64,000 nucleotides of DNA from Rhodopseudomonas rhenobacensis (lineage in GTDB: Bacteria > Pseudomonadota > Alphaproteobacteria > Rhizobiales > Xanthobacteraceae). The notes beneath the pieces were generated by a model. It was not told the origin of the DNA and did not search any database. It was given only the letters and a program-made list of their open reading frames with translations. The stretch spans positions 1 to 64,000 of the forward strand of contig NZ_JACHIH010000019.1 of assembly GCF_014203125.1 (NCBI RefSeq). Direction: 5' to 3'. The first letter of the stretch is position 1; every line of letters starts with the position of its first letter. The translations under genes and the position numbers were made by a program. Shown piece after piece: positions 38,180 to 54,484 of this stretch.

Positions 38180-38387
38180 ATCACCTGAAAATCATCGAAG
38201 AAATTGCCAAAACAGGGTCCGAAATGGCCCGTTTTCCTGCGTCCGGAAATGACAAACCGAGGTCCGCCTGATCCTTCGTCGGCTTGACCTCGATCATGGT
38301 AACGGGTTCCCCGCTTTGTAGGATCAGCCGTCCTCGGAAAAGAGCTTGCCGCCGTCGCAGCCGCCGTTACCGATGGGGGCTCGCCGT

Positions 38388-41192
38388 ATGTTCCGCAGTT
38401 TCGTCTTCCGCAATTCCGTCGCGCGCTCGGTTTTGATGCTTTACTGGATCGCCGTCCTGGTGATCCTCGGCACCGCCGCCCAATTCGCGGTCTCGGCTTG
38501 GCGGAATGATTTTCGCGCGCGCGAGGTCGTCGATCTCGTGACTCTCGATCGCACGGTTTTCCAATCGACCGCCGAGGTTCGCCTGGAGATCGGCTCGGTG
38601 GGCGTCGCGCTGTTGCGTGATGATGATCCCAGCGCCGGCGTCGAACTCGGTCTCGGCGAAATGGTCGACGCCTGGCAGCGGGCGCAGGCCGCGCTCGCCG
38701 CCTCCGCGCTGCCCGATCGGGACCGGCTGATCGCCCGGCTGTCCCGCGCGGGAGCGGCGTTCCAGGCGGCGCGGCGCTATGTCGACGCCGAGGCCGCGCT
38801 GCCACGCGCGGCCCGCGACGCCACCCGCATCGAGCCATGGCGCATGGCGGTGTATGATCTCGCCGCCGCGATCGACGCCTTGGGCACTTCGGTCGGCCGG
38901 CAATTGCGCGCCCACGATCTGGAGCTCGGCGAGCTCGTCGCCATCCGGCAGATGTCTTTCACCATCCGGGACCGCTATTCGCGGCAATGCTCGGCGTTCC
39001 GCCCGGCGGTGCAACTCGACACGCCGCTGACGCCGGCCGAGCGCGACCGCTGGCGTGAAGACATCGGCGCCTATGCCGCGCTGTGGACGCAGATGCAGCG
39101 CATCGCCCTGCAATTGCCTGAAGCCACCGGATTTGCCCCGCTCGTCGCCGAAGGCCTGAGACGCACCGAGGCGGCGCAGGCCGTCATGACGAGGACACTC
39201 GACGGCCTGTCGGGCTCCGGAAGGCCGGCCTTCGACGCCGCGGCCTGGTCGGAGAACTGTGTCTCCGCCTATTCGTCGATTCTCGGGGTCGGCAGCCATG
39301 CGCTCGACCTCGAAACCCGGCAGGCCGACAACAGCCGTGCGGAAGCCTTTCGCACCGGCGCTATATCAACCGCCGTCCTGGTGCTGGTCGGCGTGCTCGG
39401 CTTCATTTCTCTGACCTTCGTCCGGACCCGGCTGTCGGCCCCGATGCGCAACATCGAGGCCGCGCTCGCCACCCTGCGGGCGGGCGACCTCGACACGCCG
39501 ATCCAGGTGCCACGATGGAATGACGAACCGAGCGCCATCATCCGGGCGCTCGAGGGATTCCGCCTGGAGGCGCTCGAGGCGCGTCGCATGCGAGTGCGGA
39601 TCGACCAGACCCGCGACGAAATGGTCCGACACTCGGAAAAGCTCGGCCGGACCAAGTCGCAATTCCTCGCCAACATGAGCCATGAAATCCGCACCCCGCT
39701 GCATGGGATTCTCGGAACCGTCCAGCTGCTTGCGCAAAGTCGGGTGAGCAACGAGCAGCGCGCCTGGGTGCAGGCGCTCGATCAGTCCGGTCGGCTGTTG
39801 CGCGATATCCTCGACGACATTCTCGACTTCACCCGTTTGGAGAGCGGTCGCATTCGGGTCGACACCGCGCTGTTCTCGCTCAGGGAACGCATCGCCATGG
39901 TCGACGCGACGATCCGCTCGTCGATGCAGCGCAAGGGGCTGGATTTCACGGTCGACATCGATCCGGAGCTTCCCGAGATGCTCTGCGGTGACGCGGGCAA
40001 GCTCGGCCAGATCCTGCTCAATCTGCTCGGCAACGCGGCGAAATTCACCAAGCAGGGCGGGGTTCGTCTTACTGTCGCCGGCGAGCCCGGGCGACCCGAC
40101 CTGCTGCACATCACCGTCGCCGATACCGGCATCGGGATTGCGCGCGACGCGCTCGCACACATCTTCGAGCCGTTCTCCCAGGCCGACGGATCGGTCGCCC
40201 GGCGGTTCGGCGGCTCGGGGCTCGGCCTTGCGGTCTGCCGGGGACTTCTCGATGCGCTCGGCGGTGAGATCGATCTGCAGACCGAGGTCGGTCACGGCAC
40301 CAGCTTCACGGTGCTGTTTCCGGTGGCCCTGGGGGAGAACGACGCGGCGCCCGTCGCCGACGGCGTGGATGAACTCGCGGACGAACTGCCCAAGCTTCAT
40401 GTGCTGGTCGCCGAGGACAATCCGGTCAATGCCCTGATCGTCCGTACCATGCTCGAGCGCGACGGGCATCGGGTCCGCCACGTCGAGACCGGCGGCGACG
40501 CGGTCGCGGCGGCCGGCGCGGAGGATTTCGACGTCGTCCTGATGGATCTCGCCATGCCGGGTCTCGACGGCACCAGTGCCTGCCGGCAGATCCGCGCCTG
40601 TGGCCATCCCACGCGGGCGGTGGTGCCTGTTCTGGCGGTTTCCGCCGGCGGCGCGTCGCCGGACGACATCGACGCCGGTTTCGACGGCCGGCTCGAAAAG
40701 CCGTTTCATCGCGAAGACCTGTTCTGCGCGCTTGCCGGGGCCATCGGCCTGCGATCGTCGCGGCGCGCAACACGGCGAGAGAGCCTGGGTGCGATCGGCG
40801 AGCAGGCGCGCGATCTCGGCGTCGACGGCGCCCGCAAGCTGGTCTCGCTTTATCTGTCGTCGCAGCCGCCGCTGCTGGCCGAGACCGTCGCGTCGGTGCG
40901 CCATGGCGATCACGACCAGGCGCGCTTACTCGCGCATCGCCTCAGGGGGGCCGCGGCGCATATCGGCGCCGACGATCTGGCCGCGGCCGCCGCGACGCTC
41001 GAACGCGCGGTGGCGGAAGACGGCGCCATCGTCACGGCCGCGGAGCGCCTTGCAACCCTCGGTCGAACGCATTTCGCGGCTTTCGCGGTCTATGCGGAGC
41101 ACGAGCTTGCGTGCGTCGGGAGCAACGCGGTCGCCAAGGATCGCGCCGCAATCGATCGCGCCTATCAGGCGACCTTTTCGGCGAAGACGTAG
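38388..41192 (+). CDS. torS: TorS/DorS-type hybrid sensor histidine kinase
   Basis: The 934-residue inner-membrane kinase senses S-/N-oxide respiration substrate, directly or through a partner. A first membrane helix (about 12-40) leads into a roughly 280-residue helical periplasmic sensor domain of TorS type, then a second helix (TAVLVLVGVLGFISLTFV) and HAMP. The HisKA box FLANMSHEIRTPLHG carries His432. The ATPase domain shows NLLGNAAKFTKQGG, DTGIGIARD and GGSGLGLAV. A receiver domain follows with phospho-acceptor Asp720 (VVLMDLAMPG), then an Hpt domain with His850 (LLAHRLRGAAAHIG). The His-Asp-His chain ends on TorR, encoded convergently with a 28-bp 3' overlap. Start is uncertain: ATG 38388, ATG 38373 or TTG 38346. 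No TorT-like binding protein is nearby. Confidence 0.92.
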   Translation: MFRSFVFRNSVARSVLMLYWIAVLVILGTAAQFAVSAWRNDFRAREVVDLVTLDRTVFQSTAEVRLEIGSVGVALLRDDDPSAGVELGLGEMVDAWQRAQAALAASALPDRDRLIARLSRAGAAFQAARRYVDAEAALPRAARDATRIEPWRMAVYDLAAAIDALGTSVGRQLRAHDLELGELVAIRQMSFTIRDRYSRQCSAFRPAVQLDTPLTPAERDRWREDIGAYAALWTQMQRIALQLPEATGFAPLVAEGLRRTEAAQAVMTRTLDGLSGSGRPAFDAAAWSENCVSAYSSILGVGSHALDLETRQADNSRAEAFRTGAISTAVLVLVGVLGFISLTFVRTRLSAPMRNIEAALATLRAGDLDTPIQVPRWNDEPSAIIRALEGFRLEALEARRMRVRIDQTRDEMVRHSEKLGRTKSQFLANMSHEIRTPLHGILGTVQLLAQSRVSNEQRAWVQALDQSGRLLRDILDDILDFTRLESGRIRVDTALFSLRERIAMVDATIRSSMQRKGLDFTVDIDPELPEMLCGDAGKLGQILLNLLGNAAKFTKQGGVRLTVAGEPGRPDLLHITVADTGIGIARDALAHIFEPFSQADGSVARRFGGSGLGLAVCRGLLDALGGEIDLQTEVGHGTSFTVLFPVALGENDAAPVADGVDELADELPKLHVLVAEDNPVNALIVRTMLERDGHRVRHVETGGDAVAAAGAEDFDVVLMDLAMPGLDGTSACRQIRACGHPTRAVVPVLAVSAGGASPDDIDAGFDGRLEKPFHREDLFCALAGAIGLRSSRRATRRESLGAIGEQARDLGVDGARKLVSLYLSSQPPLLAETVASVRHGDHDQARLLAHRLRGAAAHIGADDLAAAAATLERAVAEDGAIVTAAERLATLGRTHFAAFAVYAEHELACVGSNAVAKDRAAIDRAYQATFSAKT

Positions 41193-41893
41193 CCGAGACC
41201 GTATTCTGTCACGATGATCTGCGGCTTGCCCGGGTCGGCCTCGATCTTGCGGCGCAGCCGGCCGACCAGCACATCGACCGTGCGATCGTTGGAATCCCAC
41301 TCGCGGCTGCTCATCACATCGAGCAGATCGTTGCGGCTCATGATGCGCCCCGGGTGGCGGACCAGGGCCGCCAGCAGTTCGAACTCTGCCGAGGTCAGCC
41401 GCATCGACTCGCCGGCAGGCGAGGTCAGCCGGTGATTCTCGAGATCGAGACACCAGCCGGCGAACCGTCGCAATCGCTTGCCGCGCCCCGGATCGGTGAC
41501 CGCGCGGGTCCGGCGCAGCACCGTCTTCACGCGGGCCAGCACTTCGCGCGGAGAAAACGGCTTGGTGACATAGTCGTCGGCACCGAGTTCGAGGCCGATG
41601 ATGCGGTCGGCCTCTTCGGCGCGGCTGGTGATCAGGATGACCGGCACGTCGCTGTCGGCGCGGATCTCGCGCATCAGGGTGAGGCCGTCGCCATCGGGCA
41701 GCCGGATATCGAGCAGGATGAAGTCGATCTTTTCCCGCGCCATCAGCCGCCGCAGCTGGTCGGCCGTTTCGGCGCTGCGGACGGCGAAGCCGGCGTTCTG
41801 GAAATAGCTGACGAGGGTCGACTGGATCAGCGGTTCGTCATCGACGATTGCGATCACCACGTCGCTTGATTGCAGGGCGCCCTCGTTTCGCAT
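41165..41893 (-). CDS. torR: TorR/DorR-type OmpR-family response regulator
   Basis: The 242-residue regulator has a receiver domain (phospho-acceptor Asp62 in FILLDIRLPDGDG, Lys111 in DDYVTKPF) and a C-terminal winged-helix DNA-binding domain (LTSAEFELLAALVRHPGRIMSR, NDRTVDVLVGRLRRKIE, TEYGLGYVF). It should receive phosphate from the Hpt domain of the adjacent kinase and activate the divergent torC operon. The gene starts at ATG 41893, so the direct repeats at 41901-41940 lie immediately upstream of both torR and torC, allowing autoregulation as known for E. coli TorR. Confidence 0.93.
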   Translation of the reverse strand: MRNEGALQSSDVVIAIVDDEPLIQSTLVSYFQNAGFAVRSAETADQLRRLMAREKIDFILLDIRLPDGDGLTLMREIRADSDVPVILITSRAEEADRIIGLELGADDYVTKPFSPREVLARVKTVLRRTRAVTDPGRGKRLRRFAGWCLDLENHRLTSPAGESMRLTSAEFELLAALVRHPGRIMSRNDLLDVMSSREWDSNDRTVDVLVGRLRRKIEADPGKPQIIVTEYGLGYVFAEKVA

Positions 41894-42016: not shown

Positions 42017-43186
42017 ATGGCAAACCCTTTCATCGCAGTCGTCCGATTCATGAAGAAGCCCGTCGCCCTCGGAGCCGCCGGCTTGATCGGCGTGATCGTC
42101 GGCGTGGTCGGATGGGGGGCCTTCAACACCGCCATGGAAGCGACCTCTAGTTTAGAGTTCTGTACGTCTTGTCACGAGATGAGAGACAATGTCTTTCAGG
42201 AGTACAAGAAGACGATCCATTACTCGAACCCCGCCGGCGTCCGCGCGGTCTGTTCGGACTGCCACGTGCCGAAAGATTGGACCCACAAGATCATTCGCAA
42301 GGTCCAGGCTTCCAAGGAGGTCTGGGGCAAGATCACCGGCGTGATTGATACGCCGGAAAAATTCGAGAGCAAGCGCCTCGAACTCGCCAAACACGAGTGG
42401 GCGCGCATGAAGGCGTCCGACAGCCGGGAGTGCCGCAACTGCCACTCCTTCGAGGCGATGGATTTCACCCATCAGCGGCCGAAAGCCTCCAAGCAAATGC
42501 AGAAGGCCTTCAAGGAAGGCGGCACTTGCATCGACTGTCACAAGGGCATCGCGCATAAGTTGCCGGATATGTCGGGCGGCTTCCGCTCCAAGATGAAGGA
42601 CCTCAAAGCCGCGGGCCTGAAGGACGGCGGCAAAGCAGAGAAGAGCTTTGCGCTCACCACCTCGCCGGCCTGGGGCGATCTCGACAAGGCCGCCGCCGGC
42701 GGTTCGGGTGAAGGACGCATCCTGCCGGCCGCGCCCGTCACCGTGCTGAAGCTCTCGGGCGATCTGGCTCAAGTCCGCATCGATGGTTGGCAGCAGGCCG
42801 GCGCCGAGCGGCTGATCGTCGCGCTGCCCGGCAAGCGGATCATGCTCGCGGCGGTCTCTGCGGCGCTTGCTGAGACCGCGCAAGTGAAGTCGACCCGCCA
42901 CGACGACGAGACCGACCTCGATTGGAAAGAGGCCTCGATCGTGCTGTGGATGCCGAAGGCCAATCTCACCGCCGACCAAAAAGCGCTGTGGGCCTACGGC
43001 GCGGAAATGTTCGACGCGTCCTGCGGCGCCTGTCATTCGCCGGCTCCTCCCGGCCATTTCCCGGCAAACCAGTGGGTCGGCATCGTCAACGATATGAAGG
43101 CCAACACCTCGCTCGAGGAAGACGAAGTGCGCTTCCTGCAGGCCTACCTTCAGAACCATGCCCAGGACGTGGCGGGCGGTCACTGA
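42017..43186 (+). CDS. torC: Pentahaem c-type cytochrome TorC/DorC
   Basis: The 389-residue membrane-anchored quinol dehydrogenase passes electrons from the quinol pool to periplasmic TMAO/DMSO reductase. An N-terminal helix (about 16-38) anchors it. A NapC/NirT tetrahaem domain has CTSCH (49-53), CSDCH (79-83), CRNCH (139-143) and CIDCH (171-175). The C-terminal domain has the fifth site CGACH (336-340). The five-haem layout is that of TorC/DorC. It is the first gene of the structural operon, divergent from torR, with a 10-bp hairpin between it and torD. Confidence 0.96.
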
Positions 43187-43250: not shown

Positions 43251-43883
43251 ATGAAGTTCAAATCCGCCGATCCGTTTCAGTCCGCCGATTGCTTTGCCGA
43301 ACTCGCCCGCCTGTTCGGCGCGCCGCTCGATGAGGTCGAGATCGCCGCGCTGTTCGAACGCGGACGCTTCGACGCGCTGCAGGCGCTGGACTGCGACCCG
43401 CGGCACGCGGTCGATCTGCGCGCCGCCATCGCTGCGGTGAAGTCGGCCGGCGATGCGGCGGCTGCGACGTCGCGGCTCAACAGCGTGTTCTGCCGGCTTT
43501 TCCTCGGCCTCGGCCCGACCCCGGAGACGCTGCCGATCGAATCGGCGCATCGCGGCGAGGGCCGACTGTTCCAGGAGCCGGCCGCGGTGATGAGCGAAAT
43601 GCTGACCGCCCACGGGCTCTGCCTGACCGAAAACTGCGCCGAGCCGCCGGATCACCTCGCCGTCGAACTGTCGCTGCTCGAGCAGTTCATCCGGCTGGAG
43701 GCAAGCCTCGTCGATCTCGACGAGCGGCCCGCGATCGCGTCGCTGCGCCGACGCCTCGCCGAATGGACGCCGGGCTTCGCCGAGGCCGTAACCTTGCACG
43801 ATCCGACCGGCTTCTACGCCGCGCTCGCCCGCATCCTGGTTCGTCTGCTCGATGACGTCGCCCTCGATACTGTTTCCGCCTGA
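43251..43883 (+). CDS. torD: TorD-family molybdoenzyme chaperone
   Basis: The 210-residue cytosolic chaperone belongs to the TorD/DmsD/NarJ family. These bind the Tat signal and core of the reductase before cofactor insertion and export. It is all-helical, with ADCFAELARLFGAPLDEVEIAALFERG at the N terminus, the family-typical RLFLGLGP region, and a C-terminal YAALARILVRLL helix. The start ATG 43251 follows CCCGGAGATCATTCG. Its place between torC and the reductase gene is the usual one. It probably serves the first reductase, whose twin-arginine signal is intact; whether it also serves the second is unknown. Confidence 0.88.
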   Translation: MKFKSADPFQSADCFAELARLFGAPLDEVEIAALFERGRFDALQALDCDPRHAVDLRAAIAAVKSAGDAAAATSRLNSVFCRLFLGLGPTPETLPIESAHRGEGRLFQEPAAVMSEMLTAHGLCLTENCAEPPDHLAVELSLLEQFIRLEASLVDLDERPAIASLRRRLAEWTPGFAEAVTLHDPTGFYAALARILVRLLDDVALDTVSA

Positions 43884-43991: not shown

Positions 43992-46445
43992 ATGTCCCAG
44001 CCTGCCACCCACGCTCTCTCCCGCCGTCGCTTCCTCACCGCGGCAAGTACGCTTGCCGCCTCGTCGGCGTTGTCGCCGCTGTTCGGCATCAACCTCGCGA
44101 GCGCTGCGACGCCCGATGGCGAGATTTTGAGTTGTTCGAATTTCGGTGCGTTCTGGGCCAAGGTGCAGGCCGGCCGGGTGGTCGGAGTGAGGCCGTGGGA
44201 GGGCGATCCCCACCCGATCGCGACCATCGAGGGCGCCGTCGACCTCGCTTATTCGCCCTCGCGCATCCGCTATCCGATGGTGCGGCGGTCGTGGCTCGAA
44301 AAAGGCCCCGGCGCCGAACCCGAGACCCGCGGCCGCGATGACTTCGTCCGGGTGTCCTGGGACAAGGCGCTCGACCTCGTCGCCGCCGAGATCAAGCGCT
44401 GCGCCGCGATGGGACCGTGGTCGATCTACACCGGCTCCTATGGCTGGGGCCATTTCGGCCGGCTGTTCAACTCGCAGACCGGCCTGCGCCGGCTCTTCAA
44501 CCTGATGGGCGGTTCGGTCGGCTCGTCGTCGAACTACTCCAAGGCCGGCCTCGAGGCGATCATGCCCTACGTGCTCGGCCAGATCGACGCCGAGGGCCCG
44601 CAGACCTCGCACCAGACCATCCTCGAGAACACCGACCTCATCGTGTTCTGGGCCTGCGATCCGCTCAAGGACAATCACATCTCCACCAACGTGCCGGATC
44701 ACGGCGAATACGGCTGGTTCGAGGCGATGAAGAAGGCCGGCAAGAAGGCGATCTTCATTGATCCGATTAAGACCGAGGGATGCAAACTCCTCAACGGCGA
44801 ATGGCTGCCGGTGCGGCCGCATTCCGACGTGGCGCTCGCGCTCGGCATCGCCCATGTGCTGATCACCGAGAACCTCGCCGACAAGAAATTCCTCGCCGAC
44901 TACACCACCGGCTGGGAGGTCTTTTTCGACTACGTGACCGGCAAGCCTGACGGCACGCCGAAGACGCCGGAATGGGCGGCGGAAAAGACCGAGATCCCGG
45001 CCGAGACCATCCGCGAGCTCGCCCGTCGCTTCGCCAAGGGCCGCACCATGCTGGTCTCCGGCTGGACGCCGCAGCGCCAGCAGCACGGCGAGCAGTTCCC
45101 GTGGGTCTTCGTCACGCTTGCGGCGATGATCGGCCAGATCGGCTTGCCCGGCGGCGGCTTCAGCCAGCGCTACCATCTCGACAATGCCGGCGCGCCGCAG
45201 GCCGATAGCCCGGCGCTGTCGACCACCATGCAGGCCGGCAAACGCAAGGAGACGATGCCCTGGCCGAAGGAGAAGGGCGCCGAGACGATTCCCGTCGCCC
45301 GCATCGTCGACATGCTGATGAACCCCGGCAAACCCTACGAGCACAACGGCAAGACCTTCATCTATCCCGACGTCAAGATGACCTATTGGGTGGGCGGCAA
45401 TCCGCTGCATCACCATCAGGACCGCAACCGTCAGGTCGCGGCCTGGAAGAAGTTCGACACCGTCATCGTGCAGGACTTCCAGTGGACCGCCTCGGCGCGC
45501 TTCGCCGATATCGTGCTGCCGGCGGCGACCGGGCTCGAGCGCGAAGACATCGAGGGGCTCGGCGTCGTCACCCGCAAGGCGTACTTCGCCGTGCGCAAGG
45601 TGATCGAGCCGCTGTACGAGGCGAAGTCGGACTACGTCATCTTCCAGATGCTCGCCGAGAAGCTCGGCATTGAGCCGGAGTTTTCCGACGGCAAGACCGA
45701 ACTGGACCGGGTCAAGCAGGTCTATGCCGCGGCCTTGGAGCAGGCCACGGCCAAGAAGATTCCGATGCCGGATTTCGATGCGTTCTGGAAAGCCGGCATC
45801 GTCGAATTCGCCACCCCGGAGAAGAACGTGCGGCGGACCAAGTACGCGCAATTCCGCGAGGATCCGCTGCTCAATCCATTGCCGACGCCGTCCGGCAAGA
45901 TCGAGATCTTCTCCAAGACCATCGCGAAGTTCGGCTATGACGACTGCCCGCCGCACGCCACCTGGCTCGAGCCGGTCGAATGGCTCGGAGCCAAGGAGAA
46001 GAAGTACCCGCTGCACGTCAATTCGAACCATCCGGACTACCGGCTGCATTCGCAGTTGAACGGCACCAAGGTGCGGGCGATCTATGCCGCCGCGGGGCGC
46101 GAGCCTTGCACGATCAACACCCGCGACGCCGCCGCGCGCGGCATCAAGGCCGGCGATGTGGTGCGCGTGTTCAACGATCGCGGCCAGTGTCTCGCCGGGG
46201 CCGTCGTCTCCGACGATATCCGCCCCGGCGTGATCCAGCTGCAGGAAGGCGGCTGGTACGATCCGGTGAAGGCCAACGAGCCGAACGCGCTGTGCAAATA
46301 CGGCGACGTCAACGTGCTGACGCTCGACATCCCGACCTCACGGCTCGCGATGGCCACCTCGGCGCATACCTGCATGGCCGACGTCGAGCTGTTCAAGGGC
46401 GAGCTGCCCAAGGTGTCGGTGTTCGACCAGCCGAAAAACGGTTGA
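43992..46445 (+). CDS. torA: Periplasmic DMSO/TMAO reductase, molybdopterin (DorA-like)
   Basis: The 817-residue enzyme reduces S- or N-oxides with a bis-MGD molybdenum centre. The Tat signal is canonical: SRRRFLTA followed by a hydrophobic stretch and an ASA cleavage region near residue 38. The Mo-ligand Ser183 lies in SSSNYSKAG. Tyr150 and Trp152 (SYGWG) lie 33 and 31 residues before it, the same spacing as Tyr114/Trp116 to Ser147 in Rhodobacter DMSO reductase. There is no Fe-S motif, as expected for this single-subunit class. The Tyr points to activity on S-oxides as well as N-oxides. It is downstream of torD; a strong hairpin follows the stop. dorA would be an equally fair name. Confidence 0.94.
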   Translation: MSQPATHALSRRRFLTAASTLAASSALSPLFGINLASAATPDGEILSCSNFGAFWAKVQAGRVVGVRPWEGDPHPIATIEGAVDLAYSPSRIRYPMVRRSWLEKGPGAEPETRGRDDFVRVSWDKALDLVAAEIKRCAAMGPWSIYTGSYGWGHFGRLFNSQTGLRRLFNLMGGSVGSSSNYSKAGLEAIMPYVLGQIDAEGPQTSHQTILENTDLIVFWACDPLKDNHISTNVPDHGEYGWFEAMKKAGKKAIFIDPIKTEGCKLLNGEWLPVRPHSDVALALGIAHVLITENLADKKFLADYTTGWEVFFDYVTGKPDGTPKTPEWAAEKTEIPAETIRELARRFAKGRTMLVSGWTPQRQQHGEQFPWVFVTLAAMIGQIGLPGGGFSQRYHLDNAGAPQADSPALSTTMQAGKRKETMPWPKEKGAETIPVARIVDMLMNPGKPYEHNGKTFIYPDVKMTYWVGGNPLHHHQDRNRQVAAWKKFDTVIVQDFQWTASARFADIVLPAATGLEREDIEGLGVVTRKAYFAVRKVIEPLYEAKSDYVIFQMLAEKLGIEPEFSDGKTELDRVKQVYAAALEQATAKKIPMPDFDAFWKAGIVEFATPEKNVRRTKYAQFREDPLLNPLPTPSGKIEIFSKTIAKFGYDDCPPHATWLEPVEWLGAKEKKYPLHVNSNHPDYRLHSQLNGTKVRAIYAAAGREPCTINTRDAAARGIKAGDVVRVFNDRGQCLAGAVVSDDIRPGVIQLQEGGWYDPVKANEPNALCKYGDVNVLTLDIPTSRLAMATSAHTCMADVELFKGELPKVSVFDQPKNG

Positions 46446-46506: not shown

Positions 46507-47016
46507 ATGTCCATTGCCGGTCATCCCGGTTCGGTCCGGCTGAAGCGCTTGTTGGCTGTCGTGGTGCTCGGCTCGGCCCTTGGCCTCGCGGCCGTGCCTC
46601 CGGCCGAGGCGGCGCGGCTGCGGCTCCGGGCGACGATGGAGCGTTACTCCGGCAATCCGGCCTATCTCGCCGTCTATGTGACCGACGCCAAGGGGCACTT
46701 CATGGCGACGGTGCAGATCTTCGGCGACAAGGTTCAATACTATCCGCATCTGTCGCATTGGATGCGCGCGGTCGGTCCGCAGAGCGTGGCGCTCGACGGC
46801 ATCACCGGGGCGTCCGTCGGCTCCGGACGCGGGCTCGACGTCAGCGTTGAAGTCGCCGACGCCCTGATCGGTGCCGGCCTTCAGCTCCGCGTCGATGCGG
46901 CGGCGGAGAACATCGCCGACGATCCCGCCGAAATCATCATCCCGCTCGAACCAGCCGCCGCCGGTCGCGATGCGACCGGACGCGGCCTCATCGCGCGGTT
47001 TCGCTTCGACATGTAA
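46507..47016 (+). CDS. Secreted DUF2271 protein with FMN-attachment motif
   Basis: The 169-residue protein has a signal peptide (RLKRLLAVVVLGSALGLAAV, cleavage near AEA, residue 36) and no twin arginine. The mature domain has the DUF2271 pattern (NPAYLAVYVTDAKGHFMATVQIFGDKVQYYPHLSHWMRA). At residues 97-103 it has DGITGAS followed by VGSGRG, matching the D-G-x-(S/T)-G-A-(T/S) sequence that ApbE uses to link FMN through phosphoester to the final Thr/Ser; here that is Ser103. An ApbE domain is encoded 16 nt downstream. I infer a periplasmic covalent flavoprotein acting as an electron carrier. GGAGGTGAGACC gives a good ribosome site for ATG 46507. Confidence 0.87.
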   Translation: MSIAGHPGSVRLKRLLAVVVLGSALGLAAVPPAEAARLRLRATMERYSGNPAYLAVYVTDAKGHFMATVQIFGDKVQYYPHLSHWMRAVGPQSVALDGITGASVGSGRGLDVSVEVADALIGAGLQLRVDAAAENIADDPAEIIIPLEPAAAGRDATGRGLIARFRFDM

Positions 47017-47031
47017 CCCGGGGGATCGCAG

Positions 47032-49410
47032 ATGCCGGCGCGTCGATATCACCTCTGGCTCGGCTGCCTCGCCGGTCCCTTTTTGGTGGTGCTCGCCGTC
47101 ACCGGCGTCCTGCTTGCGGTCGATGCTCTGCGGGCGCACGCGACCCAACCAGCCGCGGCGCCCGCCGGGCTCAGCGTCGCCGACCTCGCTGCGGGCCTTG
47201 CACGCCACGGCACACTCGAACGGCTGGCGGTGACGCCCATGGGCACGATCGTCGCACAATTCGCGACGCCGCGCCGTCGCGCCACGATCGACCCGGCCGA
47301 TCTCTCGCTTCGCCCGGTCGCCGAGGCGGGCGACACCATCCGGACCGTGACCGAGATCCACCGCACGCTGATGACCGGCGACCCCGGTCGCCTCATCCTG
47401 GCGCTCGCCACCTTCGCCGGCCTGCTGCTCGCCGCAACCGGCCTCGCACGGATCTGGCGTGGCGAACGCGGCGGCGGGGCGCTGCGGCGGCTGCATCGCA
47501 GCCTCGGCCTGACCTTCGCGCTGCCGTTTGTCGTGTCCGCGGCGACCGGGCTCGGGCTTGCCGCCGCCGCCATGTTTCCCGTCGACGGCGTGCGCCCGGC
47601 GTTTCCGTCCGCCTTCGCCGAGGGCGACCGGCTGCCGGTCGGCGCGGTCGCGGCGCTCGCGGCAGTGGCGGTCGGCGATCTCGAAGAACTGGTGCTGCCG
47701 CGCGCCGACGATGCCGATGACGGTTATTTTCTGGCGACCGCCGATCGCTTCGCCTGGATCGATCCGGTGAGCGGTCGTGTTGCGGCGGCGAGCGAGCGCC
47801 CGGTGATGCATCGGCTGACGGCCGCAATCCTGCGCTTGCACGCCGGGCGCAGCATGACGGCGCTGGCTATCATCTTCGGTCTCGCCGCCGCCGCAGTGGC
47901 GTTGCTCGGACTGACCGGCCTCGCTGCCGGCGGGATCGCGATCCGGCGACGACGGCCCGTCGTCAGCGGCGCCGCGGCCAAGGCTGATACTATCATTCTC
48001 GTCGGCAGCCAGGGCGGCACCACCTGGGGCTTCGCCGAGCGGCTGGCGGCGCGGCTGACCGAGGCCGGCCACCGCGTCGATCTCGCGGCGATGAACAGCC
48101 TTGCCTCGGACTATCCGACAGCCGAGCGGCTCATCGTGCTCACCGCGACCCACGGCGTCGGCGAGCCGCCGGGCTCCGCCGATCGGTTTCTCGCGCGGCT
48201 GCCGCAGGCGATCCTGCCACCGGCCTTCGCCGTGCTCGGATTTGGCGACCGCGAGGCCAAAGCCTTCTGCGGCTTTGCCGAAGCGGTCGACGCTGCATTG
48301 CTGGCCACGGGCGCCAAGCCGATGCTGCCGCTGGCGCGGATCCATCGCCGCTCCGAACCGGACTATGCCGCCTGGGTCGAGCGGCTGCTTGCCGCGCTCG
48401 GTCACGCGCGCGAGGCCGTTGCTCCGACCGATCGTCCGGTGCCGGCGCCGCTGGTCAGAGGATCGCTGACGCGCCGCGTCGTCTCCGGAAAGGCGATGGG
48501 CTCGCGGTGGTCGGTGACGCTTTGGGCGCCGGAGCATCGCGACTTGTCCGATCTTGTGGCGGGGCTTGCAGCCCGGATCGCCGCGATCGAAACATCGATG
48601 TCCCGCTTCCGCGACGACTCCGAGGTTTCTGCCTTCGACCGGGCGCCGTGCGATGCGTGGCAATCGGTGTCGCGCGATCTGGCTGAAGTCCTTGCCGTCG
48701 GTCTCGACATCGGGCGTCGCTCGGGCGGGGCGTTCGACGTCGGGCTCGCCGCCGAGGTAGCAGCCCGTGGTTTCGGCGCGGGATGGAGCGGCAGCGGCGT
48801 CGCGCGGGATCGGATCGTTCCAGCGCATGAGACGATCGAGCTCGATCTCGGCGCTCGGCGGATCCGCAAGCGCGCCGCCGTCTCGCTCGATCTCGCCGGC
48901 ATCGCCAAGGGCTGGGCGGTCGACGAACTGTCCCGTCTCGTCGCCGAGGCCGGCTTTCCGTCGCATCTGGTGGCGCTCGACGGCGAACTTCGCGCCGGCG
49001 CCGTGCAGCCCGACGGCCGGCCGTGGGCGATCGGCCTCGAGGCGCCCGCGATCGGCCGCCGTGCCGTGATCGGCCACATCGACCTGATCGAGCGATCGGT
49101 CGCGACCTCCGGCAACAATCGCCGCTGCGATGCGAACGGCGGCCACACCATCGATCCGGCGACCGGGCGCTCCGTCGCCGCTGCGCCGGCCTCGGTGAGC
49201 GTGCTCGGCTCGACCTGCATCGTGGCCGACGCCTGGGCGACGGCGCTCATGGTGCGCGGCCGTGATGGCCTCGCCGCAGCGCGGGCCGCCGGCGTCGAAG
49301 CCCTGTTCGTGGCGCGTGAGCCGCTGGCGATGCCGCCGACGGCGCGTGCTGCGCGGTGGCTCGGCGCGCAGCTCTCAAATCACAGGAGGTGCCGCGACGC
49401 ACAGCCATGA
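47032..49410 (+). CDS. PepSY-TM / flavodoxin / ApbE triple-domain fusion
   Basis: The 792-residue protein has three parts. (1) A PepSY-type membrane domain, about 1-305, with four helices (8-30, 118-140, 157-181, 274-300), two periplasmic PepSY-like loops, and helix-end histidines 110, 155, 260 and 270 that could bind haem. (2) A flavodoxin domain, 318-455, with SQGGTTWG for phosphate binding, TATHGVGEPPGSADRF and VLGFGDREAKAFCGFAEAVD. (3) An ApbE FMN transferase, 480-780, with MGSRWSV, GGAFDVGL, LAGIAKGWAVDEL, VATSGNN, HTIDPATGRS and metal residues Asp733/Thr737. The IRRRR after helix 4 puts domains 2 and 3 in the cytosol by the positive-inside rule. It likely moves electrons across the membrane and modifies the adjacent DUF2271 protein. 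Confidence 0.88.
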   Translation: MPARRYHLWLGCLAGPFLVVLAVTGVLLAVDALRAHATQPAAAPAGLSVADLAAGLARHGTLERLAVTPMGTIVAQFATPRRRATIDPADLSLRPVAEAGDTIRTVTEIHRTLMTGDPGRLILALATFAGLLLAATGLARIWRGERGGGALRRLHRSLGLTFALPFVVSAATGLGLAAAAMFPVDGVRPAFPSAFAEGDRLPVGAVAALAAVAVGDLEELVLPRADDADDGYFLATADRFAWIDPVSGRVAAASERPVMHRLTAAILRLHAGRSMTALAIIFGLAAAAVALLGLTGLAAGGIAIRRRRPVVSGAAAKADTIILVGSQGGTTWGFAERLAARLTEAGHRVDLAAMNSLASDYPTAERLIVLTATHGVGEPPGSADRFLARLPQAILPPAFAVLGFGDREAKAFCGFAEAVDAALLATGAKPMLPLARIHRRSEPDYAAWVERLLAALGHAREAVAPTDRPVPAPLVRGSLTRRVVSGKAMGSRWSVTLWAPEHRDLSDLVAGLAARIAAIETSMSRFRDDSEVSAFDRAPCDAWQSVSRDLAEVLAVGLDIGRRSGGAFDVGLAAEVAARGFGAGWSGSGVARDRIVPAHETIELDLGARRIRKRAAVSLDLAGIAKGWAVDELSRLVAEAGFPSHLVALDGELRAGAVQPDGRPWAIGLEAPAIGRRAVIGHIDLIERSVATSGNNRRCDANGGHTIDPATGRSVAAAPASVSVLGSTCIVADAWATALMVRGRDGLAAARAAGVEALFVAREPLAMPPTARAARWLGAQLSNHRRCRDAQP

Positions 49411-49531: not shown

Positions 49532-51910
49532 ATGTCGATCACACGTAGTACGTTTATCCGCAGTATCATTCCCGGCGCGGTCGGACTGGCGATGTTTCCC
49601 CACCTCGCGCGCGGCGCCTCCGGCTCCGGCGGCGTCGTCGACGGCCGCGTGCTTGTGAACACCTCGATCGGCCCGATGTTCTTGGTGAAGAAGGGCGGCA
49701 AGGTCGTCGGCGTCGAGCAACTGAAGCAGGACGGCGAACCCTGGAAGCTGCTCGGCGACATGCCGGACCGGCTCTACAACAAGGCGCGCGTCAAGGCGCC
49801 GATGATCCGCCGCGAATTCCTGAAAAATCGCGAGAAGAGCGATCGGACCGACCGCGGCAGCCGCGACTTCGTCGAGGTGAGCTGGGACGACGCGTTGAAG
49901 ATCGTCAGCGAGGAAATGCAGCGGATCAAGACCAAATTCGGCAACGCCTCGCTGCACCGCGGCAAGAGCTCCTGGGCCTCGAACCACGCGCATTTCTATC
50001 GCACCGAGGCGCTGCTGCAGCGCTTCCTCAACGGCTTCGGCGGGTCGTCGACCTTCTTCGGCAACTACTCGAACCAAGCCATCTCGGAGATCCTGCCGGC
50101 GGTTGCCTGGTCGAGTCCGGCCGCAGCGAGCGACTGGCCGGTGATCCATCAGAACGCCAAACTGATGGTGCTGTGGGGCTGCAATCCGGTGGCCACCACC
50201 CGCATCCTGTCCGGCCGCTACGCCACGCACGCCTGGTACGAGGCGAAGAAGCGCGGCATCGAGATCATCGCGATCGACCCGATGAAGTCGGAGACCGTGA
50301 AGGAGCTCGGCTGCGAATGGCTGCCGATCCGGCCCAACACCGACGTCGCGCTGGCGCTCGGCCTGATGCACACGCTGCTCACCGAGAACCTCCAAGACAA
50401 GGCGTTCATCGAGGGCTACACCAAGGGTTTCAAGGATTTCGAGCCCTATCTCACCGGCGCCAAGGACGGCACGCCGAAGACCGCCGAGTGGGCTTCGGGC
50501 ATCACCGGCATTCCGGCCGACACGATCCGCGGTCTCGCCCGCAAGATGGCGGGCACCCGCACCACCATTGCCGGAGGCTGGTCGACCCAACGCCAGCATC
50601 ACGGCGAGCAGGCCCCTTGGGCCTTGGTCGCGCTTGGCGCCATGCTCGGCCAGATGGGACTTCCCGGCGGCGGTGTGAGCTTCGGCCTGCACTATGCCGA
50701 CGGCGGATATCCGCGGCCCACCATGCCGGTGGTCGGCGGCATCTCGCCCGGTACCAATGCGGTGCCGAATCCGTTCCCGATCGCCTGCCTGTCGGACGCT
50801 TACTTGAACCCGGGCAAGACCATCGAGTGCAAAGGGCGCAAGATCACCTATCCGGACATTCGTCTCGTCTATACTTCGGGCGGCAACCAGCTCACCCATC
50901 ATCAAGACACCAATCGGGTGATCGAAGCCTTCCGCAAGCCGGAGGTGGTGATCGTCCAGGATCCCTGGTGGAGCCCGAGCGCCCGCTTCGCCGATATCGT
51001 GCTGCCGGCTTCGAGCGATCTGGAGCGCAACGACCTCGGCCAAACGCTCAACCTGATCACTGCCGCGCATGCGGCCGTCGATCCGCTGTTCAAGTCGCGT
51101 ACCGACTACGACATCTTGACCGAACTCGCCGACCGGCTCGGCCACCGCCAGGCCTTCACCGAGGGACGCAGCGAGATGGAGTGGGTGCAGTTCTTCTATG
51201 ACGCGGCCAAGGCGCAGTCGAAGGCGGTGAAGATGCCTGACTTCGACGAGTTCTGGGCCGGCGAGGGGATCGTCGAATTCCCTGCAGGCAAAGGCGAATT
51301 CGTGCATCTGGCCGACTTCCGCAACGATCCGCTGCTGCAGCCGCTGTCGACCGCCTCCGGCCTCATCGAGTTCGTCTCTCCTTACGTCGGCAAGCTCGGC
51401 TACGATGACTGCCCGGCGCATCCGACCTGGATCGAGCCGGTGGAATGGAAAGGCAGCAAAGGGGCGGACAAGTTCCCGCTGCAGCTGATCTCTCCCCACC
51501 CGCCGCTGCGTCTGCATTCGCAGATGTGCAACACCGAGACGCGCAAGAGCTACACCGTCGCCGACCGCGAACCCGTCGTCATCAACGCCGAGGACGCGGC
51601 GAAAAGGGGCATCAAGAGCGGCGATATCGTCCGGCTGTTCAACGACCGCGGCCAAACGCTTGCCGGTGCGATCGTTACGCCCGACATCCTCCAAGGCACG
51701 ATCTGCCTGCACGAGGGCGGTTGGTACGACCCGGCCAAGCCAGGGGAAAAGGGAGCTCTCGACAAATACGGCTCGCCGAACCTGCTGACCCTCGACGTGC
51801 CGCTCTCCTCGCGCTTTGCCCAGGCAACGATTTCCGGCACGGCGATTTGCGACGTGGAGAAGTGGAAGGGCGAGGCCCTGCCGGTGACCGCGTTCGACGC
51901 CGTCGGCTGA
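49532..51910 (+). CDS. Second molybdopterin N-/S-oxide reductase (TorA-like), atypical signal
   Basis: The 792-residue paralogue of the enzyme at 43992 keeps the bis-MGD fold and the Mo-ligand Ser180 (FGNYSNQA). Around the active-site Tyr position it reads KSSWAS in place of SYGW, one residue shorter and without Tyr, the condition reported for E. coli TorA; N-oxide preference is inferred. The N terminus SITRSTFIRSIIPGAVGLAMF is laid out like a Tat signal but has Arg-Ser instead of Arg-Arg. An in-frame ATG at 49478 would add DRRATKGPAM, with the RR poorly placed far from the hydrophobic stretch. Export is therefore doubtful. It follows the flavin-module gene by 121 nt, and a strong hairpin follows its stop. 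Confidence 0.9.
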   Translation: MSITRSTFIRSIIPGAVGLAMFPHLARGASGSGGVVDGRVLVNTSIGPMFLVKKGGKVVGVEQLKQDGEPWKLLGDMPDRLYNKARVKAPMIRREFLKNREKSDRTDRGSRDFVEVSWDDALKIVSEEMQRIKTKFGNASLHRGKSSWASNHAHFYRTEALLQRFLNGFGGSSTFFGNYSNQAISEILPAVAWSSPAAASDWPVIHQNAKLMVLWGCNPVATTRILSGRYATHAWYEAKKRGIEIIAIDPMKSETVKELGCEWLPIRPNTDVALALGLMHTLLTENLQDKAFIEGYTKGFKDFEPYLTGAKDGTPKTAEWASGITGIPADTIRGLARKMAGTRTTIAGGWSTQRQHHGEQAPWALVALGAMLGQMGLPGGGVSFGLHYADGGYPRPTMPVVGGISPGTNAVPNPFPIACLSDAYLNPGKTIECKGRKITYPDIRLVYTSGGNQLTHHQDTNRVIEAFRKPEVVIVQDPWWSPSARFADIVLPASSDLERNDLGQTLNLITAAHAAVDPLFKSRTDYDILTELADRLGHRQAFTEGRSEMEWVQFFYDAAKAQSKAVKMPDFDEFWAGEGIVEFPAGKGEFVHLADFRNDPLLQPLSTASGLIEFVSPYVGKLGYDDCPAHPTWIEPVEWKGSKGADKFPLQLISPHPPLRLHSQMCNTETRKSYTVADREPVVINAEDAAKRGIKSGDIVRLFNDRGQTLAGAIVTPDILQGTICLHEGGWYDPAKPGEKGALDKYGSPNLLTLDVPLSSRFAQATISGTAICDVEKWKGEALPVTAFDAVG

Positions 51911-51954: not shown

Positions 51955-52201
51955 TCGCGGCGGCGCTTGGTTAGCCCCGAGCGTAGCGGCATCGACCACG
52001 AATTGAGCTTGCGCCTGAGGCTCAGGCGCACGGGCGGCTTCACGATAGTGTCATAGCGCTCAATTACCGATCTCGCGAACTGGAGCGGCGCCGTCGTTTC
52101 AGGATGGATCGGGTCGCGCGGCGTCGTCGGCGGTCTTGTCCACGGAATCCGCGGGTTGTGGGATCCAGTCGCCTGTTCAGTTTCGTAGCGGGGAAGCGTG
52201 C

Positions 52202-52909
52202 GTGCAATCGGATCGGCTTGGCCGCAGGCGGTTCGCCTCCGGGGTTTCGCTGGCGATGGGGCTGACGGCGGCGCATTTTTCTCCTGCCTACGTCCAACAG
52301 GCTTCGGCGCAGCAACCGCGTCACGAGATCAGGTTCGATATCCCCTCGCAATCCCTCGCCGATGCGCTGGTGGTCTATGCCAGGAGCACCGGCCTGGAAA
52401 TTCTGGCTGACGACGGCGTCGTCTCGGGCCGTCGGTCCACCGCGGTCAGCGGCGAGTTGAACCCGACGATCGCCTTGCGTCGGATGCTGGCCGAGACCGG
52501 GCTCGAGATTCACTATCTCGATCGCGGCGCCGTCACCCTGCTGCCGTCCCGCGGCCCCGGCGGCGAGCCGGGGGAGCGCGCAACAGATCGCTATGCGTCG
52601 TTTTCGGCGGCGCTGCAGGTCGCGCTGGTGCGGGCGATGTGCGGATATGACGGCGGCCGCGCCGCGGCCTCCCGCGTCGCCGCGCAGCTCTGGATCGCGC
52701 TTGACGGCAGCATCGAGCGGTCCTTGTTGCTCGACAGCACCGGCGATCGTCGGCGCGACGCGGCGATCTTGGCGCAACTCGAAACGCTCACGGTTGGTCA
52801 GGCGCGGCCCGCGGATTTGCCGCAGCCTGCGACCGTGATCCTGGCGTCGCGGTCGTCGCAGGACAATGCCGGCTGCAGGCCGGTCAGGCGCGCGGGCGTC
52901 GCGCCATGA
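52202..52909 (+). CDS. Stand-alone STN (secretin/TonB short N-terminal) domain protein
   Basis: The product is 235 residues from GTG 52202, which has GGGGAAG about 6-10 nt upstream; TTG 52136 would add 22 residues. The signal sequence contains RRRFASGVSLAMGL, compatible with Tat. An STN domain follows (IRFDIPSQSLADALVVYARSTGLEILADDGVVSGRRSTAVSGELNPTIALRRMLAETGLEIHYL). A second domain (about 125-215) looks like a TonB-C-type fold (LQVALVRAMCGYDG...LWIALDGSIERSLLLDSTGDRRRDAAIL). STN is normally the signalling domain at the N terminus of FecA-type receptors; here it is a separate protein. Its stop overlaps the ECF sigma start by 4 nt, so it is probably the periplasmic input for the sigma/FecR pair. 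Confidence 0.82.
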   Translation: MQSDRLGRRRFASGVSLAMGLTAAHFSPAYVQQASAQQPRHEIRFDIPSQSLADALVVYARSTGLEILADDGVVSGRRSTAVSGELNPTIALRRMLAETGLEIHYLDRGAVTLLPSRGPGGEPGERATDRYASFSAALQVALVRAMCGYDGGRAAASRVAAQLWIALDGSIERSLLLDSTGDRRRDAAILAQLETLTVGQARPADLPQPATVILASRSSQDNAGCRPVRRAGVAP

Positions 52910-53448
52910 CCGAAACCAGTTGGGGAGCGCTGCGCGATCTGCTGGTCGATCGCTATGATGAGCTGAGGGCGCGGCTGGCGCGGCGGTTGCGTTCGGCGGA
53001 TCTTGCCAACGACATCTTGCAGGAGACCTGGCTGCGGCTGGCGCGCGGCGGCAGCGCCGGCGTGCTGCGCAGTCCGGAGGCCTATCTGTTTCGAATGGCG
53101 CTCAACGTCGCCGCCAACGAGCGGGAGTCGCAGAAACGACGCCTGGCCTATTCGGAGGTCGATCCTCTGATGAAATTCGAAGACGACGAACTCGACCCGG
53201 AACGCTTCGCCGCGGCCCGCTCGGAGATTGGCGCATTGGCCCAGGCGCTCGACGAACTGCCGCCACGCCGGCGGGCGATTTTTATGATGGCCCGTATCGA
53301 CGGGCTGCCGCATCGCGAAATCGGCGAGCGGACCGGCCTTTCGGTGCGCATGGTCGATCGGGAATTGCGCAAGGCACTGGCGCATTGCGGACAGCGGCTC
53401 GACCGGAAAGTCGTCAGAATTTTCGGTCCCAGAGAATTAGAAGAGTAG
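52906..53448 (+). CDS. FecI-type ECF RNA polymerase sigma factor
   Basis: The 180-residue sigma-70 family protein has region 2 (LRSADLANDILQETWLRLARGG...PEAYLFRMALNVAANERES) and region 4 (ALDELPPRRRAIFMMARIDGLPHREIGERTGLSVRMVDRELRKALAHCGQ), the latter typical of FecI. ATG 52906 overlaps the STN gene stop (ATGA). FecR lies 46 nt downstream. The obvious target is the giant haemagglutinin gene 167 nt after fecR, plus perhaps its own operon. Confidence 0.93.
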   Translation: MTETSWGALRDLLVDRYDELRARLARRLRSADLANDILQETWLRLARGGSAGVLRSPEAYLFRMALNVAANERESQKRRLAYSEVDPLMKFEDDELDPERFAAARSEIGALAQALDELPPRRRAIFMMARIDGLPHREIGERTGLSVRMVDRELRKALAHCGQRLDRKVVRIFGPRELEE

Positions 53449-53494
53449 TCATGATCGCTCCTGTGCTGATTCGTAATCCGGGACGTCTCCGCTG

Positions 53495-54484
53495 ATGAAT
53501 GGAGATCTTGCCGAGACCGCCACCGCTGCGGACGCCGTTTCGCGTGAGGCGCAGGCGTGGGTCTCGCGGCTGACTTCGGGAGAGGCCACCACTGCAGACC
53601 TCGCGCAGTTCGAGCGCTGGCGCTCGTCAAGTGCTACGCATCGCCGGGCCTTTCGCGAAGCCAAGCTGTTGTGGAACGTGATGGGTCCGGCGGCCGAACT
53701 GTCGCGGGCCCGCTCCGCCGCCGCGGGCATCGCCAGCCATCGATCGCAAACCCTGCTCGGGCGCCGAGCCTTGCTCGGCGGTGCGATGGCGGCTTCGCTG
53801 GCCGGCGTCGCGATCGTGGTGGCGCAGCCGCCGCTCGGATTGTGGCCGTCTTTGACCGAAGCGATGTCCGACTATCGCACCGCCAAGGGTGAGATCCGCG
53901 AGATCCGCGTTGCCGACGTCGCGCTGGAATTGAACACCCAGACCAGCATCGCGCTGCGTCCGCCATCCGCGGACACCGACCTGATCGAACTGATTGCCGG
54001 CGAAGCGGCGGTGGCGACCGAGCGGAATTCGAGGCGCTACGTCTCGGTGCTCGCCGGTGGCGCGCGCGCGACCGCAAGGAATGCCGCGTTCAACGTCCGT
54101 CGCACCGCGGCGTCCGGATGCATCAGCTGCAAGACCGGAGAGGTCGTCGTCGCGCATGGCGGAGCCGAGGTGACGCTGCAGTCGCAACAGCAGGTCAGTT
54201 ATGACGGACAGGGGCTGCAGCCGGTGGTCGCTACCGACCTCGCCGTCGTCACCGCATGGCAGCAGGGCATGCTGGTGTTTCGCAGCGATCCGTTGTCCCG
54301 GGTGATCGATGAAGTCAATCGCTACCGGCCGGGACGCATCGTGGTGATGAATGAAGAATTGGGGCGCCGCCAGGTGTTCGCCAATTTCCGCATCGACCGG
54401 CTCGACGAGGTGGTGCCGCGGCTGCAGGCGGCGTTCGGGATCCGGGTGCGGTCGCTGCCGGGCGGGATCGTTTTGCTGAGCTGA
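53495..54484 (+). CDS. fecR: FecR-family anti-sigma/sigma regulator
   Basis: The 329-residue inner-membrane regulator has a cytosolic N-terminal DUF4880 domain (AQAWVSRLTSGEATTADLAQFERWRSSSATHRRAFREAKLLWNVM) that binds sigma. One membrane helix lies at about 90-115. The periplasmic FecR beta domain contains TAKGEIREIRVADVALELNTQTSIAL, and a C-terminal STN-like DUF4974 (GMLVFRSDPLSRVIDEVNRYRPGRIVVMNEEL...VFANFRIDRLDEVVPRLQAAFGI) ends the protein. GRRALLGG before the helix is Tat-like, as in some FecR proteins. It should relay the signal from the STN protein to the ECF sigma factor. Confidence 0.93.
   Translation: MNGDLAETATAADAVSREAQAWVSRLTSGEATTADLAQFERWRSSSATHRRAFREAKLLWNVMGPAAELSRARSAAAGIASHRSQTLLGRRALLGGAMAASLAGVAIVVAQPPLGLWPSLTEAMSDYRTAKGEIREIRVADVALELNTQTSIALRPPSADTDLIELIAGEAAVATERNSRRYVSVLAGGARATARNAAFNVRRTAASGCISCKTGEVVVAHGGAEVTLQSQQQVSYDGQGLQPVVATDLAVVTAWQQGMLVFRSDPLSRVIDEVNRYRPGRIVVMNEELGRRQVFANFRIDRLDEVVPRLQAAFGIRVRSLPGGIVLLS

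Follow-up and report, generated by a model that had tools for sequence, protein, structure and literature searches.

A PepSY-flavodoxin-ApbE fusion inside a torSRCDA-like operon of Rhodopseudomonas rhenobacensis: a candidate electron donor to the second reductase

A flavinylation module between two reductases

How is an S-/N-oxide reductase supplied with electrons when the gene beside it encodes a flavinylation module and not a cytochrome? The question is raised by a torSRCDA-like operon in a 64,000-nucleotide stretch of the Rhodopseudomonas rhenobacensis genome, referred to here as the window (assembly GCF_014203125.1, contig NZ_JACHIH010000019.1, positions 1 to 64,000). The genes of this operon follow in the row TorS-like, TorR-like (opposite strand), TorC-like, TorD-like, TorA1, DUF2271, fusion and TorA2 (Table 1), the fusion being a single protein that joins a PepSY membrane domain, a flavodoxin domain and an ApbE (flavin mononucleotide, FMN, transferase) domain. 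From sequence comparison, and tentatively, the DUF2271-fusion pair is read here as a remodelled PepSY-like flavinylation module that would act as a flavin/haem wire feeding TorA2, replacing TorC. Electrons from a reductase encoded elsewhere would enter the flavodoxin FMN in the cytosol, pass through the PepSY domain by way of its two predicted b haems and then reduce the FMN that the exported DUF2271 protein carries on Ser103. This protein would then carry them to TorA2, in place of the TorC that is found by TorA2 in two other genomes. FMN would be attached to DUF2271 by the ApbE domain at the cytosolic face, either ahead of Sec export or in the course of it.

The gene beside TorA2

Both reductases match the molybdopterin oxidoreductase domain of Pfam. 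The cut-off of TIGR00509 (BisC/DorA/TorA, 1017.55 bits) is exceeded by TorA1, whereas TorA2 falls below it and is related but outside the family; that of NF011682 (TMAO reductase TorA, 909 bits) is reached by neither (888.6 bits for TorA1, 773.8 for TorA2). TorA1 matches the DMSO reductase 1eu1 (1.5e-290) and retains the SYGW stretch, which is replaced by KSSW in TorA2; the Ser at the molybdenum-ligand position is retained in TorA2. The meaning given to Tyr114 and to Ser147 (the molybdenum-ligand position) is our assumption.

Relatives of TorA2 with more than 70% identity occur, among the matches listed for 297 genomes of the order, in G027, G060 and G097 only; among those listed for 385 genomes of the class, own genome excluded, the best reaches at most 46%. 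In G060 and G097 the TorA2 gene (73% and 72% identity) directly adjoins TorC, and no DUF2271, PepSY or ApbE match was found in the stretches examined (17.5 and 19.9 kb). Both genomes are also absent from those with a fusion match in the order scan. In the two fusion operons, those of the window and of G027 (a genome of a different family in the same order), the gene adjoining TorA2 is the fusion. Because TorA2 adjoins TorC in the former pair but the fusion in the latter, TorA2 is proposed as the partner of the module and replacement of TorC as its role. The original prediction had named the first reductase as a possible acceptor; since TorA1 is already accompanied by a torC and a torD, TorA2 would be the likelier partner.

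Since the arrangement is kept as a unit in a second genome, it is unlikely to be a product of chance or of faulty local assembly. The G027 operon has the same order and differs by a MobB gene (molybdopterin guanine dinucleotide synthesis) between torA1 and DUF2271 (L036:12589-13131). MobB-like genes also lie 3' of torA in loci L117 and L118. Identity between the two copies is 87% for TorA1 and for TorA2, 85-86% for TorC, 83-84% for TorR, 74% for the TorS-like kinase (904 aligned residues), 72% for DUF2271, 65% for TorD (the frames compared begin a little 5' of the probable start) and 57% for the fusion over its length. The ratio of nonsynonymous to synonymous substitution rates (dN/dS) ranges from 0.10 to 0.46 across the operon genes; the fusion as a whole is highest at 0.46, indicating purifying selection. 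When all window frames of at least 120 codons were compared, the common block ran from torS to torA2, and outside it only matches of 30-39% were found between the window and G027 stretches (short-chain-dehydrogenase-like and ABC-ATPase-like proteins, as we take them to be). A tRNA-Tyr lies 166 nt before the start of the block in the window and none is present in the G027 stretches, which may point to lateral spread.

Among the matches listed for the 297 order genomes, full-length fusion matches were those of R. rhenobacensis (G000) and G027. Scans of the class (385 genomes), the window's own family (198) and the phylum (398) returned G000 only, and a scan of the G027 family (15) returned G027 only. 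The scans overlap and most score the best few candidates per genome, so that rarity is indicated, not proven. No third copy was found in them, although long ApbE-matching frames in further genomes, such as those of 916 aa in G202 and 675 aa in G308, were not followed up. Among plasmid records there were 378 matches, none covering 80% of the fusion.

The carrier and the fusion protein

The two proteins were compared with 39 ordinary modules from the order and class (loci L037, L039 and L073-L109, 6-15 kb each), which were hand-picked from the best PepSY/ApbE matches and are not a random sample. One of them (L109), with a split PepSY frame and an ApbE start that could not be anchored, was omitted from the PepSY and ApbE residue counts and from the PepSY tree. 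The anatomy originally predicted is borne out: a secreted DUF2271 protein with DGITGAS at residues 97-103, then one protein with four PepSY-type helices, a flavodoxin and an ApbE domain, both between two molybdoenzyme genes. Only the spacing of the pair needs correction, from 16 nt to 15 nt. The DUF2271 protein scores 79.6 bits against PF10029 (cut-off 27.3) and carries TGAS of the [S/T]GA[S/T] core at residues 100-103. Both operon copies read DGITGAS and have a Sec-type signal without a twin arginine. The motif [DN]Gx[ST]GA[ST] is present in 37/39 ordinary loci, and 21 of the 27 columns conserved in at least 92% of the ordinary DUF2271 proteins are retained in both operon copies.

In the fusion, Pfam places PepSY_TM at residues 5-297 (1.1e-24), Flavodoxin_1 at 322-438 and ApbE at 489-759 (remaining E values in Table 1), with scores well above the family cut-offs for PF03929 (88.2 bits, cut-off 28.8) and PF02424 (190.9 bits, cut-off 25.6). 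NAD_binding_1 (PF00175) has no match in the fusion and is present in the ordinary protein of G077. Hydropathy scanning gives each fusion four membrane segments of at least 1.8, along with lesser peaks of 1.3-1.7, some of them in soluble domains. In the window copy, lysine and arginine residues near the membrane are densest in two places, the loop joining helices 2 and 3 and the stretch that follows helix 4; the pattern is less clear in G027. The stretch between flavodoxin and ApbE (430-500) peaks at only 0.63 and 0.92 in the two copies. Because no membrane-like segment separates them, and from the helix and charge pattern, both domains are predicted to lie on the same, cytosolic side. Single-sequence structure prediction was unusable (mean pLDDT 44.0 for DUF2271 and 37.6 for the fusion).

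Four histidines, His7, His110, His155 and His270, are each present in 38/38 ordinary proteins and in both fusions. The structure 7ABW (FoxB) has two haem sites, each with two conserved histidines (PMC11334425). A profile of 12 PepSY domains matched 7abw weakly (E 0.92, below flagellin at 0.26), and the main FoxB stretch of this match pairs His7 and His110 with FoxB histidines. His155 and His270 can be equated with FoxB haem ligands only provisionally, because the two later FoxB histidine stretches fall on the profile half already covered by the main stretch. The flavodoxin residues G325, S326, T331, T373, G375 and G377 are retained; in the loop between helices 2 and 3 both fusions lack nine residues of the ordinary proteins, including a GGW stretch. 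The route originally proposed, from a cytosolic flavodoxin through the membrane domain, keeps its predicted haem histidines and key flavodoxin residues, but the NADPH-binding domain is missing and the source of the electrons is not evident.

Origin of the fusion

The usual form at the 39 ordinary loci is a DUF2271 gene, a PepSY-flavodoxin-FNR gene and a separate ApbE gene. In the family member G077, for example, a single protein carries PepSY_TM, Flavodoxin_1 and NAD_binding_1, and its neighbour carries ApbE. Of the 39 stretches, 37 contain a match to a TorR-like (OmpR-type) regulator and none contains a torA, torC or torD match. The idea that the module generally accompanies torA is therefore rejected, and the co-occurrence with torA across genomes that the original prediction proposed to look for is absent from the ordinary loci.

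In a tree of the PepSY-flavodoxin part (40 rows) the two fusions group together as a single clade (100/100) whose stem measures 1.59 changes per column, nested in an 18-row group (97/96) whose other 16 rows are ordinary modules. The long stem fits a change of role. In the ApbE tree the fusions again form one clade (98/90), with a position that is not settled and long branches elsewhere. Most simply, the fusion would descend from an ordinary module in which, a single time, FNR was dropped and the module's own ApbE became attached. Where DUF2271 is ~75% identical to that of G077, the ordinary PepSY domains of L094 and L099 keep 62-65% identity, against 50% between the fusion copies, whereas L092 and L093 (DUF2271 74-75%, PepSY 44-46%) match the divergence of the fusion pair. 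A profile search of G000 found four PepSY_TM places (PF03929) and five NAD-binding places (PF00175); no place is common to both sets, and a second PepSY-flavodoxin-FNR protein is accordingly not seen there. The flavodoxin domain might be served in trans by a separate reductase.

Loading of the carrier

Of 50 columns conserved in at least 95% of 38 ordinary ApbEs, 36 are retained in both fusions, including K626, TSG692-694, H705, D733 and T737, and 14 are changed in one or both. The ordinary ApbEs lack a signal peptide in 38/38 readable loci and frequently start with MSKxST. When the most hydrophobic 10 residues within the 45 ahead of the ApbE domain were scored, 37 of these 38 gave 1.25 at most (L095, with just 8 residues ahead of the domain, was unscored), against 1.82 to 3.79 in seven signal-bearing controls. 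The controls were an ApbE from contig C21 of G000 and six from loci of a separate scan; 5 of 12 control ApbEs were not anchored and were left unscored. In the 11 loci that supplied controls, BLAST at 1e-4 gave ApbE relatives and general two-component proteins, and no PepSY, flavodoxin, FNR or DUF2271 match.

The C21 ApbE has a Tat-like signal, and its neighbours are presumably NosY/NosL-like. A second DUF2271-associated ApbE of G000, on contig C39, starts without an evident signal (by eye). The C39 locus (L038:5021-8063) contains a PepSY_TM match, DUF2271, a protein that we take to be DUF4198-like and ApbE, with a presumably TonB-receptor-like gene nearby; its DUF2271 reads DGLSSPT at the motif position despite the adjoining ApbE. 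Since the ApbE is predicted to be cytosolic and DUF2271 to be exported, FMN would have to be attached no later than in the course of export, unless the task falls to another ApbE that is itself exported, for example that of C21. The earlier proposal that the fused ApbE charges DUF2271 thus keeps the support of the motif and of most conserved ApbE residues, but would place the enzyme and its exported substrate on opposite sides of the membrane. The signal-less ApbEs of all readable ordinary loci extend the question to the whole class: how does an exported DUF2271 protein receive FMN from an intracellular enzyme? Cytosolic ApbEs are known, with intracellular targets (PMC12052999), and it is extracytosolic ApbE that is discussed in PMC8238504.

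Relation to known systems

The combination of PepSY, DUF2271 and ApbE has been published as a PepSY-like flavinylation system, with ApbE attaching the flavin to DUF2271 (Meheust et al. 2021, PMC8238504); the class of the module is therefore already described, a point that the original prediction missed. A PepSY_TM membrane protein, an exported DUF2271 with the motif and an ApbE, encoded by adjacent genes, are common to both. The present module differs in the fusion of ApbE to PepSY-flavodoxin, in the absence of the NAD-binding domain, which is found in a subset of PepSY-like genes (1077; PMC8238504), and in its location in a tor operon. In related respiratory systems, flavin carriers and cytochromes fill similar roles (PMC8238504). 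The notion of a TorC-independent branch stands in part: relatives of TorA2 carry TorC instead, but the operon has a torC of its own and the exchange of carrier and cytochrome had already been proposed in that paper. Its main text has no word starting with molybd-, DMSO or trimethylamine.

Classical TorCAD/DorCDA operons with TorS/TorR share with this one the TorS-, TorR-, TorC-, TorD- and TorA-like genes; the second, divergent reductase and the intervening flavin module are different here. If the favoured reading holds, the module would resemble MsrPQ in that a membrane haem protein feeds a periplasmic molybdoenzyme, although MsrPQ has, to our knowledge, no covalent flavin carrier and no ApbE. 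No match to MsrP or MsrQ (PF00174, PF01794) was found in the 10 proteins scanned. The membrane cores of PepSY and MsrQ proteins resemble each other (PMC11334425). The NosR/PceC/NapH-like donors are alike in using a flavinylated carrier for a periplasmic respiratory enzyme (PMC8238504), with an FMN-bind domain and an FeS membrane protein there and DUF2271 and predicted b haems here. The signal-less ApbE of Klebsiella and the ApbE-fumarate reductase fusions of trypanosomatids offer parallels for a cytosolic ApbE and for its fusion to a redox protein; their targets are intracellular, whereas the predicted target here has a Sec-type signal (PMC12052999).

No description of an FNR-less ApbE fusion inside a tor operon was found in the titles and abstract openings listed from the open-licence literature. 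As far as the searches show, three elements are new: ApbE is fused in a protein devoid of FNR, this fusion has a constant position within a tor operon, and the neighbour of TorA2 is either the fusion or TorC. If the proposed role is true, a multi-haem cytochrome gives way to a covalent-flavin carrier as the donor for a DMSO/TMAO-type molybdoenzyme, and the proposed exchange of flavin and haem carriers extends to the DMSO/TMAO reductase family. The absence of FNR and the fusion of ApbE would make the module a compact three-part construct.

Weighing the readings

Several observations weigh against a wire from the module to TorA2: i) the operon's own torC could serve both reductases; ii) the arrangement is known from two genomes only, which puts its co-occurrence beyond statistical test; iii) no electron donor is evident for the fusion, because FNR is gone; iv) the PepSY domain evolves fast, with 49-50% identity between the two copies and a pN/pS of 0.71; v) in the ApbE domain, a conserved tyrosine retained in G027 is lost from the window copy (Y696N), and four residues between TSG and His705, present in the six ordinary rows compared, are absent from both fusions; vi) the C21 ApbE, with its Tat-like signal, might load DUF2271 instead of the fused ApbE; vii) we know of no established route for flavinylation of a Sec substrate on the cytosolic side; and viii) the N-terminus of TorA2 reads TRSTFIR in the window and G027 against SRREFIR in G060 and G097, the twin arginine having become Arg-Ser, so that export of TorA2 is uncertain.

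The first alternative is that the module, as proposed for its relatives, has kept ferric iron or some other acceptor in the periplasm as its target and is now under TorR control, its neighbourhood with the reductases being regulatory, with no common electron path. VIT1, TonB receptors and Fur link PepSY-like clusters to iron, and the usual role of these clusters is proposed to be iron reduction, a further point against a respiratory role here (PMC8238504). A PepSY locus of Caulobacter matters for fitness in EDTA (PMC11870441). Of the 39 ordinary loci, three have a VIT1-like gene and two a ferric-reductase-like gene in the stretch examined; L039, which supplied both query sequences, is one of the loci with such a gene. 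FecI/FecR-like genes lie at 52906-54484 of the window, after the operon. No iron transporter was seen among the operon proteins scanned, however (Fur sites were not searched), and none of the window proteins at 52136-64000, the FecIR-like ones included, has a match in the G027 stretches. The loss of the NADPH domain, the long stem of the fusions and the TorC that stands beside TorA2 elsewhere also argue against an unchanged iron role, which is considered unlikely, though it deserves to be taken seriously.

The second alternative follows from the TorA2 signal. With a broken Tat signal, TorA2 might stay in or on the cytosolic side and be fed directly by the cytosolic flavodoxin, which without FNR is free for another partner; in one variant of this scheme the wire would start at DUF2271, with TorC as its possible reductant, and run inward by way of the haems; in another, a soluble reductase would reduce the flavodoxin. 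The change from Arg-Arg to Arg-Ser is found in both fusion operons, and in SufI the replacement of the second arginine alone by D, E, H, N or Q abolishes Tat export, Ser not being in the list; a more hydrophobic h-region restores export of such mutants (PMC5539426). The TorA2 signal region is 78% identical between the window and G027, and its hydrophobic stretch is not only kept but more hydrophobic (1.43 and 1.42 in the changed copies of the window and G027, 1.18 in both G060 and G097). This rise fits compensation, and TorA2 is therefore likely to be exported, a cytosolic location being possible. The retention of an exported DUF2271 is also harder to explain with a cytosolic TorA2, and direct feeding by the flavodoxin is regarded as improbable.

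Third, the pair might serve the upkeep of the reductases, supplying electrons in the periplasm that activate or repair the molybdenum centre or the methionines of TorA1 and TorA2. Repair is likewise the task of MsrQ/MsrP, where a membrane haem protein is the donor, and the same anatomy would serve. A TorD-like chaperone is already present for maturation, though, and we know of no activator of this type for DorA/TorA enzymes, which makes such a role quite improbable. Rated a shade lower is a scheme in which FNR was lost because the flavodoxin gained a non-exported TorA2, docked on the cytosolic face, as its new partner, with the wire running inward from the periplasmic TorC/DUF2271 side and the fused ApbE, on that same face, charging the carrier before export. 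Least probable, and hardly to be credited, is a decaying or chimeric gene without function: the missing FNR, the PepSY domain at 49% with its high pN/pS, Y696N and the better conserved L094 and L099 PepSY domains at similar DUF2271 identity would suit it, but the gene is open over 792 codons in one genome and full-length in a second family, with a dN/dS of 0.46, the four predicted haem histidines and most ApbE residues are kept, and the ordinary pairs L092 and L093 are equally divergent.

Operon layout and neighbourhood

The TorS-, TorR-, TorC- and TorD-like proteins have the Tor models as their best NCBIfam matches, each below the curated cut-off (Table 1). The gaps are 108 nt between TorD and TorA1, 61 nt between TorA1 and DUF2271, and 130 nt between the fusion and the ATG of TorA2. 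A scan of the operon for consensus promoters and terminators gave 0 and 5 sites, against 0.9 and 6.9 in shuffles.

Table 1. Coordinates of the operon genes and fusion domains in the window
Feature	Coordinates	Strand	Evidence
TorS-like hybrid histidine kinase	38346..41192	+	HisKA, HATPase_c, Response_reg, Hpt; best NCBIfam TorS 390.5 bits, below cut-off 676.5
TorR-like response regulator	41165..41893	-	best NCBIfam TorR 249.6 bits, cut-off 275
TorC-like pentahaem cytochrome (NapC/NirT domain)	42017..43186	+	PF03264 5.7e-77; best NCBIfam torC 462.7 bits, cut-off 478.2
TorD-like chaperone, start inferred at ATG 43251	43251..43883	+	PF02613 2.4e-19; best NCBIfam TorD 78.3 bits, cut-off 132
TorA1, DorA-type S/N-oxide reductase, canonical Tat signal SRRRFLT	43992..46445	+	TIGR00509 1020.4 bits
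DUF2271 protein, Sec-type signal peptide (by eye), Ser103 in DGITGAS	46507..47016	+	PF10029 2.3e-22
DGITGAS codons, predicted FMN attachment site	46795..46815	+	motif present in both operon copies
PepSY_TM-flavodoxin-ApbE fusion, 792 aa	47032..49410	+	three Pfam domains
PepSY membrane domain of fusion; His7/110/155/270 predicted ligands of two haems	47032..47961	+	
Flavodoxin domain of fusion, predicted cytosolic	47983..48411	+	PF00258 3.9e-17
ApbE (FMN transferase) domain of fusion, predicted cytosolic	48484..49341	+	PF02424 4.1e-56
TorA2, divergent S/N-oxide reductase, signal TRSTFIR vs SRRxFLK	49541..51910	+	TIGR00509 900.8 bits

A second torS-R-C-D-A set is present in G000 on contig C5 (L114:3137-11526), with a TorA 64% identical to TorA1 and no flavin-module match in the stretch around it (L114). 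In G097 a gene of the Oxidored_FMN (NADH:flavin-oxidoreductase) family lies shortly upstream of TorA2-TorC (L111:5685-7799).

Just before torS the window has an RNA-methyltransferase-like gene (37074-38179) and the divergent tRNA-Tyr. The same pair is found in G060 (L110:467-1598, protein 52% identical), ~2.2 kb from TorC-TorA2 and on its other side; no tRNA was found in the G097 stretch, as in those of G027. The pair may mark a common neighbourhood or an insertion hot spot. Beyond the operon, the window at 52136-64000 encodes an STN-domain protein, an ECF sigma factor and a FecR-like protein, followed by a frame of more than 3100 codons that leaves the window and, by eye, resembles a filamentous-haemagglutinin-type secreted protein.

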